A stretch of 64,000 nucleotides of DNA from Spirochaetaceae bacterium. Its GTDB lineage: Bacteria > Spirochaetota > Spirochaetia > Treponematales > Treponemataceae. Every line of letters starts with the position of its first letter. The stretch's first letter is position 1. Below are positions 53,375 through 64,000 of this stretch, one piece after another. The notes beneath the pieces are model-generated. The model did no database searches. It was not told the DNA's origin and saw only the letters and a program-made list of their open reading frames with translations. The translations under genes and the position numbers were made by a program. The stretch is from contig JAGBFB010000042.1 in assembly GCA_017936665.1 (NCBI GenBank), forward strand, positions 1 through 64,000, in the 5' to 3' direction.

Positions 53375-54682
53375 TTAGTAAAAAAGACCAATTCCAATAA
53401 ATAATTCTAAATCATTTTTGCTAATACCAGCACTTGCTCTTAATTCTAAACTTCTAGTGATTCGTGGGTAAACTAGAAATTCTAAACCACCAGAAATTAT
53501 AAAATTATTTGCATAACCTATATCCATAAATGGTGAAATTTGTAATTCAAAATCATACCATTTGTTTTTATTTATTTTAAAAATAGAAATTGGAAAATCA
53601 AAATTACACAAAAAACCTAAATTACTAGTTAGATTTGTATCTGTAATTCCTCTAATATATTTTGCAACAAAAATATCTTCTGGATTATAAAATCCATATA
53701 TTCTAAAGTTTGTACCTAAAAAAGAAAAATTATTATAATAAGCAAAATAAGATTCTAAAGAAAATTTATAAGTAAATTCATTATAAGATAAATTGATTAA
53801 ATTAGTTGAATTTAAAATAAAACCTTTCCTAAAATTTGAAATCCAGTTTACAGAATTATTATATAATGTAAAACCTAATTTATTAACATATTGATATTTT
53901 GGAAGAATATTCCACTGTGAATTAGCAACCAAAGAAAATATAAATTTATTAAAATAAAAAGGAAATTTTACAAATAAATTTTCTGCAACAAACCATTCAT
54001 TTATTTTTGTTTGAATTGTATTATAATCTGCAATTTGCTCAAATCCGATTTTTATAAAAGGATTAATAATTGGATAAAAAAATTCAAAACCAGTGTTTGA
54101 ATCTAAAGTAAATTTTTTTTCGTTTATAAAATATCCTGTTTCAAAATTTGAAAAAATATTTGTTCCCAAATAATTTAGATAAAGAGGAACATCAAAATCA
54201 AATTGTAATCCAAATTTATGATCAAATTTTTCTGTGTAAGCATAAACTAGTTCCGAATTTAATTCTGTTAATGTTCCAAAAAAATTTGAATCACGTAATT
54301 TTAATTTTAATACTAAACCTTCATTTGAATCGTATTTAGGATAGGGCAGTGCGATAAAATTTTTTGTATCAGTTGTCTTAATTATTAAATTAACTAAAAT
54401 TAAATCAGAATTTAATTCTTTGTTGAAATCTGTAATAAGTTCGTATGAATCAATTTGTCTTAAATCATTTAATTTAATTTTTAAATCTTGAATATATGAA
54501 TTAAAAGTTTGTTCATCTTGAAAAATTAATTGATTATCTATTTCTATTTTATTTTCTAAATATTTTTGTTTAGAAGATCCTGTAATTTCATACATAATCT
54601 GATTTATTTTATATTGTTCAGAAAAAATAAAAGAAAAAAGAAAACTAAGAAATAAAATAAAAATTATTTTTTTATTTTTCAA
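53375..54682 (-). CDS. Putative outer-membrane beta-barrel protein with POTRA-like N-terminus
   Basis: The product has 435 residues with a signal peptide MKNKKIIFILFLSFLFSFIFS. Residues about 24-110 resemble a single POTRA-like domain, followed by LKLRDSNFFGTLTELNSELVYAYTE and many alternating amphipathic strands ending in ELFIGIGLFY with a terminal aromatic residue. This layout resembles a small BamA/TamA (Omp85-like) relative, but the family assignment is by pattern only. It overlaps the neuB-like gene by 11 bp and so is probably translated with it, a possible link between envelope assembly and nonulosonate sugars. Confidence 0.6.
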   Translation of the reverse strand: MKNKKIIFILFLSFLFSFIFSEQYKINQIMYEITGSSKQKYLENKIEIDNQLIFQDEQTFNSYIQDLKIKLNDLRQIDSYELITDFNKELNSDLILVNLIIKTTDTKNFIALPYPKYDSNEGLVLKLKLRDSNFFGTLTELNSELVYAYTEKFDHKFGLQFDFDVPLYLNYLGTNIFSNFETGYFINEKKFTLDSNTGFEFFYPIINPFIKIGFEQIADYNTIQTKINEWFVAENLFVKFPFYFNKFIFSLVANSQWNILPKYQYVNKLGFTLYNNSVNWISNFRKGFILNSTNLINLSYNEFTYKFSLESYFAYYNNFSFLGTNFRIYGFYNPEDIFVAKYIRGITDTNLTSNLGFLCNFDFPISIFKINKNKWYDFELQISPFMDIGYANNFIISGGLEFLVYPRITRSLELRASAGISKNDLELFIGIGLFY

Positions 54683-55745
54683 TTATGCAACTCCAATTTA
54701 CAGCATCTCCAGATTTTATATCTTTAGTAATTTTCTTTCCAATAAAATTATCTAAAAATATAGGATGAACACCGACTTCTAAAATTTTTTCAGTTCGTAA
54801 AATTCCTATTTCATTTGAGGTAATAATATCACCTTTGCTTAAATCCTTCATAAAACGCAAAGAACGATTTGTTCTTGTATAATTATCTTTTTCAGATTTA
54901 GCTAATTTTTTTACACCTGAACCTAAAGTTTTATCTACAATTTCTCCAAAATGTTTTTTTAATTCAGTAAATAAATCATCATTTGATATAAGTTTAGCTT
55001 GCTTAATAGAATCTGTCATTTTTTTGAAATTTTCGATATTAAGAGCAACAGGATCATCAAGACCTAAATCATCATTGTTTAATGTTATATGTTTTTCTAA
55101 CATAGTTGCACCACAATATAAACTTAACAATGGAACAATATATGGACTTAATGAATGATCGCTAACTCCTGTTTTAATTCCCAAAATAGAACTTAAATTT
55201 TTAATTAAATTCAAATTATATTCTGTTTCTGTTGCTGGATATGAAGTTATACAATGTAGTAGCGTTAAATTATCAGCATTAGAAAAACATTCTAAAGCAT
55301 TTTCTATATCTGAAAGTTTAGAAACTCCACTTGATAATACAACAGGAATATTCTTATCATTTTTTTTATTTAATAAATTTAATAGTTGTATGTAATTTAA
55401 TTCAGGGGAAGCAATTTTTATAAAATCTGGATTTATCTGCAATAATTCAACAAGACTTTTAGGTCCAAAAGGGGAACACATAAATTTAATATCTAATTCT
55501 GACGAAAATTGCCGTAACTTGTAAAAAAAATCAGAATTTACTTCTAATTCTTTAAATCTTTGATAAAGAGGAATTTTTCCTGTTGGTAAATTTACAAATC
55601 CTGTATTTGGATGCAAAATTTCATCTGCATAAACCCATTGAAATTTTACACAATCTGCTCCTGCAAATTTCGCTTTTTCCACCAATAATTTTGCTTTATC
55701 AAGAGAACCTTCATGGGATGTTCCAATTTCTGCAATAATAAACAT
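54672..55745 (-). CDS. NeuB-family N-acetylneuraminate (or pseudaminate/legionaminate) synthase
   Basis: Condenses phosphoenolpyruvate with an N-acetyl-hexosamine to form a nonulosonic acid. The 357 residues have the NeuB barrel (MFIIAEIGTSHEGSLDKAK, CVKFQWVYADEI, IKFMCSPFGPKSLVEL, FIKIASPELN, VLSSGVSKLSDIENAL, LLHCITSYPA, GVSDHSLSPYI, EKHITL) and a C-terminal SAF/antifreeze-like domain (TNRSLRFMKDLSKGDII, IGKKITKDIKSGDAVNW). Which sugar is made cannot be told. Nonulosonates decorate flagellins where DUF115/Maf proteins occur, and two are encoded at 7834-10852. A -10 element lies 6 bases before its ATG and no ribosome site is visible. Confidence 0.85.
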   Translation of the reverse strand: MFIIAEIGTSHEGSLDKAKLLVEKAKFAGADCVKFQWVYADEILHPNTGFVNLPTGKIPLYQRFKELEVNSDFFYKLRQFSSELDIKFMCSPFGPKSLVELLQINPDFIKIASPELNYIQLLNLLNKKNDKNIPVVLSSGVSKLSDIENALECFSNADNLTLLHCITSYPATETEYNLNLIKNLSSILGIKTGVSDHSLSPYIVPLLSLYCGATMLEKHITLNNDDLGLDDPVALNIENFKKMTDSIKQAKLISNDDLFTELKKHFGEIVDKTLGSGVKKLAKSEKDNYTRTNRSLRFMKDLSKGDIITSNEIGILRTEKILEVGVHPIFLDNFIGKKITKDIKSGDAVNWSCIIEK

Positions 55746-56728: not shown

Positions 56729-57868
56729 TTAATAATTCCACTCAAAAGAAAGTGACATAGCAGGAGTTATTGACCATGTACTAGAAGAATAAGTTATAGG
56801 TATACCCACATTGATATCAACATGTGGAAGAGCATAATAAATGTATCCAGGAGTAATAATTCCATTATTGGAAACAAAATCGTGTACAAATTCTAAACCA
56901 ATTTTTGAAGTACTTTTAAATAATCTAGAAACTAAACCTTTAAAATGAATTTTATGAGAATCTATTGCTGTAGGATTTAATGTTTTATCATAAAAAATCC
57001 ATTGATATTCAATGATAAATCCAATTCGAGGATTTTCCCAATCTTTCATTAATCCAACTGTAAAATACAATCTATCAAATTTAGTATTTTTTATATTTTT
57101 TGTATCAAAATCAAGATGTGTAATAGTTTGATTATATAAATCAAAGCCCCATAAATTTATTTTGTTTTCTAAACCAATTGCAGGATTTTTTTTATTTTTG
57201 TCTTCACTTGCCCATTTACGTGCAAATAAATTTAATTGTAATTTACCAAATACCCTCTCTATAGAACCAGCAAATGATATATTTTTAATACTAGGAATAG
57301 TATTTCCACCCCAATTTACTTGTGACAAAATTATTGCAGAAAAATTGGTACTAAATAAATTAAAAGACATACCAATTGAAGCACCATTTACAGAATCAGA
57401 TAAAAGATTATTTTCAAATAATTCAGTATTCCCCCAAGAAATCTCTCTTTTACCAGCTTGAATATATAAAAAATCAAGTAACATATAGTCAAAATAAAGT
57501 TCGTGTAAACTTAGGGAAAAATTGGGAAAATTTGTTTTTATTGAAGCCTTTATGCCAAAAATATCACTAGCTCTGGCGTTCATATAGGTATAATGTTCTA
57601 ATGCAAAATATCCTAAAGGAGTAAAATAATCTTCAGAAGAAGATGAAAAACCAAGTCCAATATCTGTATCTAGTGCCCCCGTAAAATTAATAGAATTATT
57701 TGATGAGGAAGTAGGTTTTGGGGCTTCTTTTTGTTCCTCGACTATAATATCTTCTGCTTCAGAAAATAAACTGTCAAAATCATCAAATTCATCTGTAATT
57801 TCAGATTCTTGAGTAAAAACAACTGTAAAACAACAAAAAAACAAACAAATTAAAATTATTTTTTTCAT
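56729..57868 (-). CDS. Outer-membrane beta-barrel protein with acidic N-terminal motif
   Basis: The product has 379 residues with a signal peptide MKKIILICLFFCCFTVVFTQ. Directly after it is an acidic segment DDFDSLFSEAEDIIVEE (29-45), and a Ser/Pro linker leads to an amphipathic beta-strand region of about 320 residues that ends in SLSFEWNY with terminal aromatics, as in outer-membrane barrels. No named family is recognised. The acidic segment closely resembles one in the permease encoded three genes upstream. Last gene of the six-gene operon; 15 bp follow the LolA-like gene. Confidence 0.72.
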   Translation of the reverse strand: MKKIILICLFFCCFTVVFTQESEITDEFDDFDSLFSEAEDIIVEEQKEAPKPTSSSNNSINFTGALDTDIGLGFSSSSEDYFTPLGYFALEHYTYMNARASDIFGIKASIKTNFPNFSLSLHELYFDYMLLDFLYIQAGKREISWGNTELFENNLLSDSVNGASIGMSFNLFSTNFSAIILSQVNWGGNTIPSIKNISFAGSIERVFGKLQLNLFARKWASEDKNKKNPAIGLENKINLWGFDLYNQTITHLDFDTKNIKNTKFDRLYFTVGLMKDWENPRIGFIIEYQWIFYDKTLNPTAIDSHKIHFKGLVSRLFKSTSKIGLEFVHDFVSNNGIITPGYIYYALPHVDINVGIPITYSSSTWSITPAMSLSFEWNY

Positions 57869-57883
57869 TATAAATAAATTCTC

Positions 57884-58660
57884 TTAACGATTACTCATCA
57901 TTTCAAAATATGCTTTAGTAAACACTGTATCTTTTTGTTTAGAAAAAGACACGTTTTTAATACTTATTTGTGTTTTTTCATATTGCATTTTATCATTAAT
58001 TTTTTTACCTTTTAGGTTATCTACAATCAACATACTAACTGGAATAGAACGAGTACCTATTAATTGATATGAAGGAATAGCTGTTGTTCTAAGTAACTGA
58101 CCAGATAAACTGTAATCTTCTTTTTTCCTTATTAAGCCATCATCTTTTGTTACCCATACTTTAACTTTTGGATAAACTACATCATCTACTTTTGCATCTA
58201 ATTCAAAAAGAACGCAATCGTAGGCACCAAGTTTTTTAGGTAATGCAGAAACGATTCTATAATTATTAGAAAACTCCATTGGTGCAAAATCGGATGTGTT
58301 AGCATTGGTATTTTGAAACTTATCTCTTTTACTTGAGAATGTAAATCTTCTATCTACAGGATCATAAAACCATACATTTGATTCAATTTGTAAATATCCT
58401 TTACCTTTATCATTTTTAGGTGAAGTAATTAGAATAGTATAATTTGAAGTTTTATCTCGTCTATACATAATTGCTTCTGTAACTGATTTACTTTGTCCTG
58501 GTTTATCTTGAACAAGAGTATATTCCGCAGAAAAATCTGTATCAATAAAACTTGTAGTAGTATCACATTTTTTTAGAAGTTCATAATCTTCTTTTGTTTG
58601 TGAAAAAATAAAAAAACTTAAAAATAAAAACAGACAACAAATTAAAATATTTTTTTTCAT
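57884..58660 (-). CDS. LolA-like outer-membrane lipoprotein-sorting protein
   Basis: The product has 258 residues with a signal peptide MKKNILICCLFLFLSFFIFSQ. The mature part has the curved-beta pattern of LolA/LolB-like and 'outer membrane lipoprotein-sorting' proteins: FSAEYTLVQDKPG, YLQIESNVWFYDPVDRRFTFSSKRDKFQN, DCVLFELDAKVDDVVYPKVKVWV, SGQLLRTTAIPSYQLI. Such periplasmic carriers accept lipids or lipoproteins. The ATG at 58660 is selected because GAGGT precedes it; the longer frame to 58705 overlaps the permease gene. Its position after two FtsX-type permeases supports a transport partnership. Confidence 0.82.
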   Translation of the reverse strand: MKKNILICCLFLFLSFFIFSQTKEDYELLKKCDTTTSFIDTDFSAEYTLVQDKPGQSKSVTEAIMYRRDKTSNYTILITSPKNDKGKGYLQIESNVWFYDPVDRRFTFSSKRDKFQNTNANTSDFAPMEFSNNYRIVSALPKKLGAYDCVLFELDAKVDDVVYPKVKVWVTKDDGLIRKKEDYSLSGQLLRTTAIPSYQLIGTRSIPVSMLIVDNLKGKKINDKMQYEKTQISIKNVSFSKQKDTVFTKAYFEMMSNR

Positions 58661-58682
58661 TTTAATACCTCTATAAATTTTA

Positions 58683-59960
58683 TTATGTAACAGAAAGTGC
58701 ATCAACTGGATTAATTTTTACACACTTTCTAATAGTAAAATAAACAAATATTAAAGTTGTTACAATTACAATACCATAAATTGAAATAACTTGTAAAATA
58801 CTTGGTTGTATTAGAATTTTACCATTCATTAAAAAGATGTCTAAAGCAGGGATAGCAGTAAAATCAACTAAATTTATTGCAAATGATAAAATAAAATAGA
58901 TTAAAAACGAAGAAATAAATGCAGCTGACATTAAATAAACAACTTCTATTAAAAATAAATTTATTATTCCTTTTGGTGCAAGCCCTAATGCCATATACAT
59001 ACCAATTTCATTTGTTCGTTTTACAGCAATAACCTTATAAGTACTACCAATTCCAATTGCTATAATTAAAATTAATATTGCAATTATAATATAAATTATA
59101 ATATGCATTGCTAGTATTAAAAAGTTTAAATTTTCTAAGTTTGATGTTAATGTTATTAGTGCAGTTTTACCTTTAGCTTTATACAAATTATCAATAAAAT
59201 CTTGTTTGTCCTCAACTATAGGATACATATCGAAAAATTGATTTAAATCATTTTGTATAAATAAAATTTGTGCTGTTGATAAATCTTTATTAGAAAAAGC
59301 TCCTATAGATATGGAATAATCTTTAGGATAATTAATTAAATTTCTTAAAAATTCTAAATCAAGATATGATACATTTGCTCCAAATAAACTTGAATCTTGA
59401 AAAATTCCTTGTACAATTAAGTTTGTAGTTTCTGTATAATTATTTACAGTTTTAAGCATTAATAAAACTTCATCACCAATTTTGAGTTTTAAATAATCAG
59501 CAGTAGCAGATGAAATATATATACCATTAGTTCCTTTTTGAATTTTTCTAGAACCTTCAACAAAGGTCAAACTTGAAAATAATTTTTCTTCTTTATTAAA
59601 ATCTACACCTTTAATTTTTCTTTGTTTTAAACTTTCTCCTTCAAAAAAAAGATAGGTATTATCATTTTCATAATCAATTCTAGAAGAAATTACAAAATCT
59701 TTTGATGTAAAATAAGGTTCAATTTTTGATATTGTTTCCTCTGTGCTGTACCATCCTAAACTTCCGTTAGAGGAGTGTAGAAGCATTAAATCTCCACCAT
59801 AATAAATACGAGCCTTATTATTAAATGAAGAAATAAGTCCATTCATCATTCCAATAGCAGTAATTGTTAAAGCAATTCCAATACTTGCAACTAAAAATAA
59901 TAATAAGTACCGTTTAGGTTCAAACTTTAATGAACGAAAAGCAATAGAAGATAAAGTCAT
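58683..59960 (-). CDS. FtsX/LolE-type ABC transporter permease
   Basis: The product has 425 residues: an N-terminal helix (about 18-42), a periplasmic domain of roughly 230 residues, and three C-terminal helices (about 275-305, 325-355, 380-408). This is the MacB/LolC/LolE layout, with GIGSTYKVIAVKRTNEIGMYMALG matching the conserved cytoplasmic coupling segment. Such permeases work as mechanotransmitters with an ATPase and a periplasmic partner. No ATPase is encoded in this window. It starts directly after the first permease and has a GGTGG ribosome site. Part of the six-gene envelope operon. Confidence 0.88.
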   Translation of the reverse strand: MTLSSIAFRSLKFEPKRYLLLFLVASIGIALTITAIGMMNGLISSFNNKARIYYGGDLMLLHSSNGSLGWYSTEETISKIEPYFTSKDFVISSRIDYENDNTYLFFEGESLKQRKIKGVDFNKEEKLFSSLTFVEGSRKIQKGTNGIYISSATADYLKLKIGDEVLLMLKTVNNYTETTNLIVQGIFQDSSLFGANVSYLDLEFLRNLINYPKDYSISIGAFSNKDLSTAQILFIQNDLNQFFDMYPIVEDKQDFIDNLYKAKGKTALITLTSNLENLNFLILAMHIIIYIIIAILILIIAIGIGSTYKVIAVKRTNEIGMYMALGLAPKGIINLFLIEVVYLMSAAFISSFLIYFILSFAINLVDFTAIPALDIFLMNGKILIQPSILQVISIYGIVIVTTLIFVYFTIRKCVKINPVDALSVT

Positions 59961-61424
59961 TTAATTTCCACCTTTCATGGCTTTTACAGGTAAAATTTTT
60001 AATGCTTCAATTACTGGAATAATCCAAGAAAATAAACCAATAAACAAACTAACTAAAAATCCAAATCCAAATGAAGAGATTGTAATTTGAGGTTTTAAAA
60101 ACTTTCCTCCAAAGAGTTGTTCCAAAAATATATTATTTAACTTAATTGGAAATCTTTGTAAAATTAAAATTATTAAAAATGAAACAATAAAACTAATAAA
60201 AGCTGAAATCATTGTTAAAATAATAGTTTCACTCATGCATTGAAAAGCAATATTTCTTTTATTCGCTCCTATGGCTCTCATAGTACCAATTTCTTTTGTT
60301 CTATCTAAAATATTGATAACTAATGTATTAGTAACAACAATTAATCCTGCAAATAAAATAATAAAAATACCAATAATTAAAACAATTCTTAACCAATAAA
60401 CATATTGAGCTGTAGGTCCTGCTGCAACTCTCCAATTGACAGCTTCTATTGGATAATTATTTTTATCTGCCCATTTGTTTATTTTTCTTATAACTGAATT
60501 TTCATTAATATTTTTATTCAATCTAACTACAATAAAGTGCCAGTTCGTTACAGTGTTTTGTGGTATTGAAATTTGTTCATCTTCAAAAATTTGATTTATA
60601 TTTGTTTCTTCAACTTCTTCAACAAATATATCTGATTCTTCAGCAAATAATGAATCCATGTCGTCAAAATTAAATTCAATAGAATCAATTAAGTTTGTTT
60701 CGCTATCTTCAATATTAATTTCTTCTGAATAAGTTTCATTCATTCCTAAAAGTGAACGTATTGTAGAAGCATCTGCCAAAACTATTTTATCTAAAATATC
60801 ATTTCTCAATGGATAAGAATAAATACCTGTTATTGGTAAAACTCTGATTCTAAATGTATTTCCGTCTGAATAAACAAGTTGTACTTCTGTACCAATTTCA
60901 ATTGTTTTTTTGTTTTCTTTTTGGAAATTTTCAGCCCATGCTTCAGAAACTAATAATCCCTTTTCTCCTTTTTCAAAGGCTTTTCCTTTTACAATATTTA
61001 TTGAATTCATTATTGATAAATAATTTTCGATATCAATACCAAATACAGCAGCTTTAGATTTTTTATTATCTATCTCTAGTAAAGAAAAACTTGAAACTTG
61101 TGGTGTAAAATCATTAATTTCGTCTAGTGTTGATAAATAGTTTGTTATTTCTTCATAAAATGAAACTTCTTCCATGGGTAGAATACTTTCATCTATTAAT
61201 GAAACATTTCCAAATAAACTAACATTATCTTTTGTTTTTTCCCTAATTACTAAATCCCCTGTAAAACTTTCTTTAAATACTGTTTTTATACCATTATCAG
61301 TACCATCAAAAATAGAATTAACTATAATTAACAATGTTACAGCAAATGTAATAAATAAAACAATTACAAAAGAACTTTTACGAGAAAATATATTTCTAAA
61401 AGCTAATTTTAATGTATAATACAT
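59961..61424 (-). CDS. FtsX/LolC-type ABC transporter permease with acidic insertion
   Basis: The product has 487 residues. It has an N-terminal helix (about 17-39), a periplasmic domain to about 320, and three C-terminal helices, with DRTKEIGTMRAIGANKRNIAFQ as the coupling motif. In the periplasmic domain a low-complexity acidic insertion (about 235-285) contains DDMDSLFAEESDIFVEE at 254-270, not expected in LolC relatives and strikingly like the N-terminus of the outer-membrane protein at 56729-57868. ATG 61424 follows the Wzz-like stop by five bases; an upstream in-frame TTG would overlap that gene. Probably pairs with the second permease as a LolCE-type heterodimer. Confidence 0.87.
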   Translation of the reverse strand: MYYTLKLAFRNIFSRKSSFVIVLFITFAVTLLIIVNSIFDGTDNGIKTVFKESFTGDLVIREKTKDNVSLFGNVSLIDESILPMEEVSFYEEITNYLSTLDEINDFTPQVSSFSLLEIDNKKSKAAVFGIDIENYLSIMNSINIVKGKAFEKGEKGLLVSEAWAENFQKENKKTIEIGTEVQLVYSDGNTFRIRVLPITGIYSYPLRNDILDKIVLADASTIRSLLGMNETYSEEINIEDSETNLIDSIEFNFDDMDSLFAEESDIFVEEVEETNINQIFEDEQISIPQNTVTNWHFIVVRLNKNINENSVIRKINKWADKNNYPIEAVNWRVAAGPTAQYVYWLRIVLIIGIFIILFAGLIVVTNTLVINILDRTKEIGTMRAIGANKRNIAFQCMSETIILTMISAFISFIVSFLIILILQRFPIKLNNIFLEQLFGGKFLKPQITISSFGFGFLVSLFIGLFSWIIPVIEALKILPVKAMKGGN

Positions 61425-61429
61425 ATTTT

Positions 61430-62275
61430 TTAAGGAAATAATTTTTTCCCTTTTTCCCAAGCATTTTTAATTTTTGCACTAGCTTCTTTATCAGATTTTA
61501 TATTTTGAATTGCATTTAATAGAAATGCTATAAATATAAAAATAAAGAAAGATGCAAAAATTATAATTATAAATTTAAGAAGAATATCATTATTTTTTGT
61601 GATAAAAATTGAAAAATCATCAATAAATAATGTAACGGTATCTTTGTTTAAATTTTCTAATTCATGTTTTTCAGCAAAAATTTCTTTATTTGCATTATTA
61701 TTATCTATAATTTCTTGCAATAATAAAATTCTATTTTCAATTTCAATACTAAAATAATTTCTATATTCGCTATTTAATTTTTGTATATATTCAGAAATAA
61801 ATTTTTTTGCATTATCAACTGAATATGAGCGTAAATTAATAATTAAAGATGATTTAGTAGAATTTAATTTTACTTGATAGAATCCACTATTAACTTTTGT
61901 ATTAATAAACTCGTTATAATCTAATTGATTAAAGTTACTTTTATTAAAATCATAATAAAAAACATTATATTTTTCGTTGAGTTTTGCAATGTAACCCAAA
62001 TCTTTAAATCTTACAACTGTATCATTTAATAAATCATAATTTACAACGTTATTTAAATATTTTATTTTATTTGAAATTGGTATTGTAAGTTCAATGTCAT
62101 AGTAATTAAGAACTTTATCTTTATATTTTACATAAGAGATATATACTATACTTGTAATAAATATCAAAAGTATAGAGCCAATAACTATAAATTTACGATA
62201 TTTTAACAATACTGAAAATAAATCAATCAAAGATATTTCTTCGTTTTCATCTGTTTTTTGTTCTATGTTGTCCAT
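61430..62275 (-). CDS. Wzz-like polysaccharide chain-length/co-polymerase protein
   Basis: The product has 281 residues. It has an N-terminal cytoplasmic acidic segment, ISLIDLFSVLLKYRKFIVIGSILLIF (first helix about 32-50), a periplasmic region with coiled-coil character, and a second helix near 235-260 (FIIIIFASFFIFIFIAFLL) followed by a short Lys-rich tail. This two-helix topology with the ISLIDL...LxxRKxxI start is typical of Wzz/PCP-family chain-length regulators. The tyrosine-kinase part of PCP-2 proteins is absent. It lies between a Wzi-like gene and two permeases, linking the operon to surface polysaccharide. Confidence 0.72.
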   Translation of the reverse strand: MDNIEQKTDENEEISLIDLFSVLLKYRKFIVIGSILLIFITSIVYISYVKYKDKVLNYYDIELTIPISNKIKYLNNVVNYDLLNDTVVRFKDLGYIAKLNEKYNVFYYDFNKSNFNQLDYNEFINTKVNSGFYQVKLNSTKSSLIINLRSYSVDNAKKFISEYIQKLNSEYRNYFSIEIENRILLLQEIIDNNNANKEIFAEKHELENLNKDTVTLFIDDFSIFITKNNDILLKFIIIIFASFFIFIFIAFLLNAIQNIKSDKEASAKIKNAWEKGKKLFP

Positions 62276-62294: not shown

Positions 62295-64000
62295 TTAATA
62301 CACTTTTATTGAAAGTGTTAAATAATTACCTGCTTTGTTTTGATATTCTGCATTATTTATATTTTTAATACTATCTTTTGTACCTAAAGTATGATGTGTA
62401 TAACTAAAAGTATAAGTTAAACCAACTGTAATAGGTATATCCCATTTTCTACAATTAAGTTCTCCACCTAAAGATATAGAATTTATCCATTCATAAACTC
62501 CATCATGTAAAAAATCTTTCCAGTATAAGTCACCTTCTTGTGCATCTTGTATATTTCCACTGTAATTTAATGGATCATAAAAAGAACTACCATCAACTTT
62601 TCCACTTCCTGTTGTTGTACCGTGGCGAACCAAAGTATATTTTAAGGTGGCTAATAAATACCATAAAGGATTTGATTCTAATTGAATTTTAAATTCATCG
62701 GAATTTGGATTTAAGAAATATCCTAAAGGTTGCCCATGATTAATATATGTTGTATCCATTGGTTTATCATACCAAGGAACATCTGTTAAAGGATGTGAAT
62801 ACATATATGGTTCAATTTTTGTATATTGGAATGTAAAAATTGAAGTCCAAAAGGGCAGTGGAGATTTTGCTCCAATTTGTACAGCATACATATTTCTATC
62901 TTTATTTAGAAAGTTAGAAACTTGAACATTTAATTCATCCATAAAAATTGAAGCGTAAATATGTGTTATTTTAGGAATAGTTATACCTGTAAATAATCCT
63001 AATTGCATATTGTCAAAATCACCTATTTGATTTTGATACAAAAAAGCCAACATAAAAGGATTCATATATCCAAGTTCTATTCTTTTTGGAAATACGACGG
63101 AACCAGTTGCTCCAAAATAAAAGTATTTAAACTTTAATTCGCCCCATAAAGCTGAGTACATATTTTGAAATGTACTTGCACAATCTTTTAGATTTCCGTT
63201 ACTATCATATTCCAATGTGCCAGTAATAAAATTAGTTGAAAACCAAGAAACTGGATTTAATTGTGTTTCAAGAGATACAAAAGGTCGAGCAGTTCCTGAC
63301 AACATTAAATTACCACTACCGTATCCCCAATCGTGACGAGTTCTTGAAAATTTTACTTGAACTTTGCTATCAAAAACAGAAAAAGCAAGTTCTGGTAACA
63401 TTCTAAGACCACCAGCAGGTAAATCACTTATAGAAACATATTCATAAAAATCACTTAAAACAAACTGAAATCCATCCCAGGTTTTTTGATAAGTGTTTGG
63501 TGCATAAGATTTTGTGGATAAATCCATTAAACTTCCACCAATATTAAAATTGTAAGAAAAATATTTTGTAATATCACCTTTTATATAAACATCACCCCAA
63601 TGCTCGTGAGAAAAATCTGGATTATTACAGTTTATACTTGCTTCACTTGTCCATGTAAAGCCTGCTGTAATAGGTAGTTTTACATTTTCATCAAATTTAT
63701 TAGTGTAATAACCTGTCCTATACCACTTTTGAGGAGTATTTTGTGCAAGTCTATCATAAGTTTTAATGAAAACTTCTTTTTCTATTTCTGATAATATATC
63801 ACTTGCCAATACAGTATTCAAATTATCTAACACAAAAGATAAAGTATAAGGTTTTGCAGCTGGTAAAGTAGGTAATATTCCTCTTAAAGAAGCATTTTCT
63901 AGCAAAAAATACACATTGTCATTTAATGGAACTGATAGATTCTGCTGAGCAAAAACTCCCAATGTAAAAAAAATGAGAAAAATAAAAATAAATTTCTTAC
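62295..64000 (-). CDS. Wzi-like outer-membrane beta-barrel protein, 5' end cut by window edge
   Basis: The frame remains open to the right edge. Reading in, KKFIFIFLIFFTLGVFAQ is a signal peptide whose first one or two residues lie outside; a TTG at 63962 that could be read as a start lies inside this signal and is not used. The mature part is a large beta-barrel (over 540 residues). The segment DWGYGSGNLMLSGTARPFVSL and a later RIELGYMNPF match the pattern of capsule-assembly Wzi proteins, which help retain capsule at the surface, but this is judged by eye. The Wzz-like gene follows 19 bp later, supporting a polysaccharide role. Confidence 0.65.
   Translation of the reverse strand, partial: KKFIFIFLIFFTLGVFAQQNLSVPLNDNVYFLLENASLRGILPTLPAAKPYTLSFVLDNLNTVLASDILSEIEKEVFIKTYDRLAQNTPQKWYRTGYYTNKFDENVKLPITAGFTWTSEASINCNNPDFSHEHWGDVYIKGDITKYFSYNFNIGGSLMDLSTKSYAPNTYQKTWDGFQFVLSDFYEYVSISDLPAGGLRMLPELAFSVFDSKVQVKFSRTRHDWGYGSGNLMLSGTARPFVSLETQLNPVSWFSTNFITGTLEYDSNGNLKDCASTFQNMYSALWGELKFKYFYFGATGSVVFPKRIELGYMNPFMLAFLYQNQIGDFDNMQLGLFTGITIPKITHIYASIFMDELNVQVSNFLNKDRNMYAVQIGAKSPLPFWTSIFTFQYTKIEPYMYSHPLTDVPWYDKPMDTTYINHGQPLGYFLNPNSDEFKIQLESNPLWYLLATLKYTLVRHGTTTGSGKVDGSSFYDPLNYSGNIQDAQEGDLYWKDFLHDGVYEWINSISLGGELNCRKWDIPITVGLTYTFSYTHHTLGTKDSIKNINNAEYQNKAGNYLTLSIKVY

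Follow-up and report, generated by a model that had tools for sequence, protein, structure and literature searches.

An acidic tag shared by the permease and the outer-membrane barrel of a Lol/MacB-like spirochaete operon: a candidate docking motif for the LolA-like carrier

To our knowledge, how a soluble periplasmic carrier distinguishes the site where it is loaded from the site where it is unloaded, and how cross-talk among parallel periplasmic carriers is avoided, are poorly understood outside the Lol system of Escherichia coli. In this study, we analyzed a window of 64,000 nts (the whole stretch of DNA examined) from a Spirochaetaceae genome, in which a minus-strand operon encodes two permeases (A and B), a LolA-like carrier, and an outer-membrane barrel, in this order. 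Why do permease A and the barrel, at the two ends of this set, carry nearly the same acidic segment (hereafter the tag)? A shared tag would be a directly testable answer to the question of how a carrier recognizes its stations, and no description of such a tag was found in the literature searched (which covered few subscription papers). The features of the locus are as follows.

59961 to 61424, minus strand: permease A (487 aa), a LolC/E-, LolF-, and MacB-like ABC permease with a tag-bearing periplasmic insertion
60615 to 60665, minus strand: tag in the periplasmic loop of permease A (residues 254-270, DDMDSLFAEESDIFVEE)
58683 to 59960, minus strand: permease B (425 aa), a second FtsX-type permease, without the tag
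57884 to 58660, minus strand: LolA-like periplasmic carrier (258 aa; Pfam LolA_like, E=2e-32), without the tag
56729 to 57868, minus strand: porin-like outer-membrane barrel (379 aa) with an OccK/AlgE-like fold
57734 to 57784, minus strand: tag in the N-terminal tail of the barrel, directly after the signal peptide (residues 29-45, DDFDSLFSEAEDIIVEE)
61430 to 62275, minus strand: upstream neighbor, a Wzz-like chain-length determinant (NCBIfam WzzB, E=2e-4, below the cut-off)
62295 to 64000, minus strand: upstream neighbor, a putative second outer-membrane protein that extends beyond the window end (full length 571 aa, L276 2296-4011) and has no Pfam or NCBIfam family match

Residues of permease A are numbered from the ATG at 61424. 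The start of the LolA-like gene is at 58660, which corrects the sequence-only reading of this DNA. No plasmid carrying the operon at near identity was found by our search.

Permease A contains the Pfam FtsX and MacB_PCD domains and has profile matches to LolF, LolE, and MacB, as is characteristic of an FtsX/MacB-type permease fold with a large periplasmic domain. The scores of permeases A and B against the NCBIfam lolCE equivalog TIGR02212 were 52.5 and 38.9 bits, far below its cut-off of 362, and no gene for a LolD-type ATPase adjoins the operon in the window or in most other operons of this type (system 1; the exception is L071). On account of these two results, the operon is classed as Lol/MacB-like and not as bona fide LolCDE. 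The carrier scored 112.7 bits against Pfam LolA_like (PF17131; gathering score 30) and has a LolA fold, with 3buu (TMt 0.72, Z about 19.5), 4z48, and 9tp6 as structural matches. The barrel belongs to no Pfam or NCBIfam sequence family. Its residues 58-379 adopt a porin-like OccK/AlgE fold (Z about 22 by Foldseek and VIA-align), with an rmsd of 3.5-5.1 over 280-307 residues against OccK/OprD/AlgE; since sequence identity is about 8-10%, the likeness is one of fold only.

The two tags lie where the sequence-only reading had placed them and are identical at 12 of 17 residues. Along the coding strand (bases 57784-57734 in the barrel gene and 60665-60615 in the permease A gene), the codons coincide at only 5 of the 12 residues in common, and the DNA agrees at 34 of 51 bases; an origin of the pair as a copied DNA repeat is thereby excluded, in agreement with that reading. 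When the two proteins were shuffled, the best 17-residue match between them stayed at or below 9 identical residues over 300 global shuffles and at or below 10 over 300 local ones (20 aa). Moreover, the pattern DxDSLFx[DE] has four matches in the 2.58-Mb genome: two fall in the genes of permease A and the barrel, the third (C24:1042) has the sequence DGDTFFKE, and the fourth (C35:12975) lies outside same-strand ORFs of at least 60 aa. The tag therefore does not represent an acidic linker that is widespread in this genome.

The tag extends beyond this genome and is kept in both orthologue families. In a first survey, 118 genomes of the family were searched, and the operon was found with its order kept in about 40 of them. 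These relatives were recovered by whole-genome searches; a search for related loci with the barrel as the sole query gave no match. In nearly all of the operons, the tag is present at both sites (permease loop and barrel tail), in the same register, and its core in the barrel tails reads D-D-[FLI]-D-[SD]-[LMI]-F-x-x-[AS]-x-D-[VI]. L259 and F260 do not vary among 14 permease A orthologues and D265 hardly varies, in a loop that is otherwise variable around L259/F260. Weight matrices learned separately on the permeases and on the barrels of 39 genomes show column-wise agreement (z=5.2, reached by 0 of 20,000 column permutations). The barrel matrix locates the loop site in 36 of 39 permeases, and the permease matrix locates the tail site in 38 of 39 barrels; scanning permease B and the LolA-like proteins of the same set with the matrices revealed no tag. 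A second scan of named records, including Treponema bryantii, T. parvum, T. ruminis, T. zioleckii, and many uncultured Treponema, yielded 80 operons, 52 of which were additional to the first survey. In the further operons, the best site of the permease matrix falls within the first 130 residues in all 50 barrels, and that of the barrel matrix coincides with the loop position in 38 of 44 permeases (of the remaining six, several are cut off by the end of a contig). The search across Treponema proposed by the sequence-only reading found the permease/barrel pairing kept in nearly all operons of the first survey, and the 52 further operons agree. Selection on the protein sequence, which had been thought likely, is strongly supported, and neither of the two outcomes that were to count against that reading was observed.

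Tags of the same genome resemble each other more than tags of different genomes (p<5e-5; p=0.001 for 20 non-redundant genomes). After control for LolA and permease B distances, a partial Mantel test for system 1 was not significant (r=0.05, p=0.29), so that fine co-variation of the tags is inseparable from common descent within system 1. Fine co-evolution of the two tags within this system, for which the raw signal was positive, was accordingly set aside after phylogeny control, and a comparison between two systems was used instead.

The second, paralogous system was found by a looser family-wide pattern search, which was noisy, with many chance matches and sizeable reversed-pattern controls, and served this purpose only. 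Its operons, which include the LolD-type ATPase gene, have the order ATPase, permease A', permease B', LolA-like protein, and barrel'. Their tag, S-[DE]-D-[DE]-[LF]-F-G, sits at the same two places, as SED[DE][LF]FG in the permease loop and as SDDDLFGG or LEDELFGG in the barrel tail. Eight genomes that contain both systems allowed nine comparisons. The summed score was higher for the matched loop-tail pairs than for the swapped ones each time (9 of 9), and the single score was higher in 17 of 18 cases. The comparison controls for phylogeny and genome composition, and this result is the strongest sign of operon-specific tags. The resemblance of the tags is one of column-specific conservation, fixed register, and operon-specific matching. 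In ABC-type LolA operons of other spirochaete families, the permeases are short and lack the acidic loop, and the barrels lack the tag. It was also observed that several system-2 barrels (L080 2917-4578, as well as L160, L170, and L172) have many tandem DDDLFGGS copies in the N-terminal tail, which represent a multivalent form of the tag.

A similar arrangement was identified in operons that encode an MMPL/RND transporter, a LolA_like protein (PF17131), and a DUF1302/Wzi-like barrel in the same order (transporter, LolA-like, barrel), whose energy source is an RND pump instead of the ABC permease pair. In Treponema and relatives, operons with the long versions of these exporters (870-940 aa) have acidic-aromatic tags peculiar to them, one in the second periplasmic loop of the exporter and one in the tail of the barrel. 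The exporter insert spans approximately residues 505-560, with hydrophobic segments on either side of it (near 430 and 730-775), and has words in common with the barrel tail (e.g., WDDWGDD, DSFFDD, and GDFG). Matched insert-tail pairs stand out from unmatched ones (p=0.0015), although the repetitiveness of these sequences makes the extension to RND exporters a weaker one. No tag was found in the smaller versions (about 765-815 aa). In one small complete genome (G020, 1.14 Mb), an MMPL/RND exporter with a DDFGVF insert (L096 5281-7947) has a LolA-like neighbor and no adjoining barrel, and a search of that genome gave no barrel tail containing this word; its outer-membrane partner is absent or unrecognized. 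Separately, barrels of two distant families beside MMPL-sized transporters (L149 2734-4479 and L155 2878-4473) have DYGALF/DYDALF tails, and no matching word was found in the transporters next to them.

What, then, would read the tag? We consider it probable, if by no great measure, that the operon encodes a Lol-like shuttle whose carrier docks at both ends of its route via the D-x-D-[SD]-L-F tag. In this model, the two permeases would work with an ATPase whose gene usually lies elsewhere, take a lipidic cargo out of the inner membrane, and hand it to the LolA-like carrier, which would bring it to the porin-like barrel. The tag would act as a short linear docking motif on flexible acidic tails at the two ends of the route, bound by the carrier on the permease for loading and on the barrel for unloading, so that the same carrier surface would read the same address at both stations. 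The shared tag suggests such a common address label, and different tag variants would keep paralogous shuttles apart. Short motifs on flexible tails that are read by a partner are also represented by the C-terminal acidic tip of SSB and the TonB box; the likeness is one of principle, whereas the proteins, their partners, and their place differ from those of the tag operon.

Docking of the LolA-like carrier is the best reading of the tag, and the evidence for it is indirect: operon-specific matching, tag-linked LolA residues, a Hook that appears shortened, and a rise in tag-core confidence in AlphaFold2 models. Nine LolA residues (D42, K53, P54, R68, G88, D100, R191, P196, and K249) hardly vary in either tagged ABC system but are not so conserved in untagged or RND-type LolA-like proteins. 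In E. coli, a structured Hook and Pad on LolC serve to recruit LolA (PMC10865981), whereas in permease A the apparent counterpart of the Hook hairpin is six residues shorter (VYSDGNTFRIR, by sequence alignment to LolF) and the protein has an acidic loop insertion that bears the tag. The sequence-only reading had also proposed to model the tag with the LolA-like protein, and this was carried out for the barrel tail. Since the LolA-like and barrel genes share one frame with a stop between them, a read-through product could be folded, with a joint alignment of read-through rows only (barrel-only rows, which were misaligned onto LolA, were left out). In this model, the tag core (residues 293-302) has a pLDDT of at least 50, with a block mean of about 64, and forms a short helix, and its flanks are below 50. 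For the barrel alone, with the same seven barrel rows, nearly all of residues 8-57 are below 50, and the tag blocks are at 35-41. Of the rise in the tag, about 8 points are shared with the barrel as a whole, which leaves roughly 15-20 points as specific to the tag; the contrast consists of one run per condition, and the joined model forces LolA-barrel proximity. Of the earlier proposal, docking of the LolA-like protein stands as the best-supported mechanism, with binding and hand-over as predictions; we infer both the carrier as the reader of the tag and the direction of transport.

The main alternative, a live one although we consider it unlikely, is that the tags bind each other, directly or via calcium, and tether the inner-membrane transporter to its outer-membrane partner, the carrier being no reader at all. 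Such binding would directly account for the matching of the two tags of each operon and for the tandem copies in some system-2 barrels (L080), and the aromatic/acidic repeats of the RND set do resemble cohesive low-complexity sequences. However, system-1 tags are strongly acidic and should repel each other without a cation, the conservation of the nine LolA residues is specific to tagged systems, and AlphaFold2 confidence in the tag goes up when LolA is present. It is also rather improbable that a third partner reads both tags, be it a factor in outer-membrane assembly, a chaperone of the periplasm, or a scaffold bound to peptidoglycan. It is common for a short motif to have more than one partner, and a reader unlinked to the operon is compatible with the data; nevertheless, the tag variant follows the operon and not the genome, so the reader should be operon-specific, and the LolA-like protein is the obvious soluble candidate encoded there. 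That the tags are mere spacers, acidic unfolded linkers alike by chance or weak compositional selection, fits the acidity of both segments and the predicted disorder of the barrel tail in isolation, but is very improbable given the column-specific conservation in fixed register, the invariant LF inside a hypervariable loop, the rarity of the pattern in the genome, and the operon-specific matching.

Carrier docking at a shared tag may also hold more widely. Whether spirochaete LolA-type shuttles, ABC- or RND-driven, generally have operon-specific tags alike on pump and receiver, both read by the carrier, which would insulate paralogous lipid routes and set the direction of hand-over, is in our judgment an evenly balanced question. 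A shared tag gives a sequence signature by which pumps and their receivers in the outer membrane can be paired, and could identify such partners for orphan spirochaete exporters. The LolCDE-LolA-LolB system of E. coli and the LolDF system are alike in having an FtsX/MacB-fold permease with a periplasmic domain, a LolA-fold carrier, and an inner-to-outer route; the outer-membrane end is LolB in the E. coli system and a porin-like barrel in this operon. Among spirochaetes, the Borrelia BBJ23-29 cluster likewise combines a MacB-like ABC transporter, a LolA-like protein, and an outer-membrane barrel, and delivery of a non-polar ligand to the outer membrane has been proposed for it (PMC13078400). 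Its barrel is of the Omp85 family, unlike the porin-like barrel here, and the term 'motif' is absent from that paper (PMC13078400).

Genomic context weakly suggests a glycolipid or a surface polysaccharide precursor as the cargo. The operon directly follows a surface-polysaccharide-like cluster located upstream of its two neighbors, beyond the window end (L276 4021-18685, contig C32), which contains glycosyltransferases, a Wzy_C-like protein, and genes resembling rmlABCD, which we take from their sequences to be for dTDP-rhamnose synthesis. A Wzz homologue lies beside the operon in 10 system-1 relatives (upstream in nine and downstream in L057), and RmlA or RmlB homologues flank it in four others. 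Such a neighborhood makes a glycolipid or polysaccharide-linked cargo plausible, and points to glycans in place of the lipoproteins released by LolCDE. Elsewhere in the window, a 435-aa protein without a Pfam match (53375-54682), by eye possibly a short Omp85-like barrel, is encoded next to a NeuB-family gene (54672-55745).
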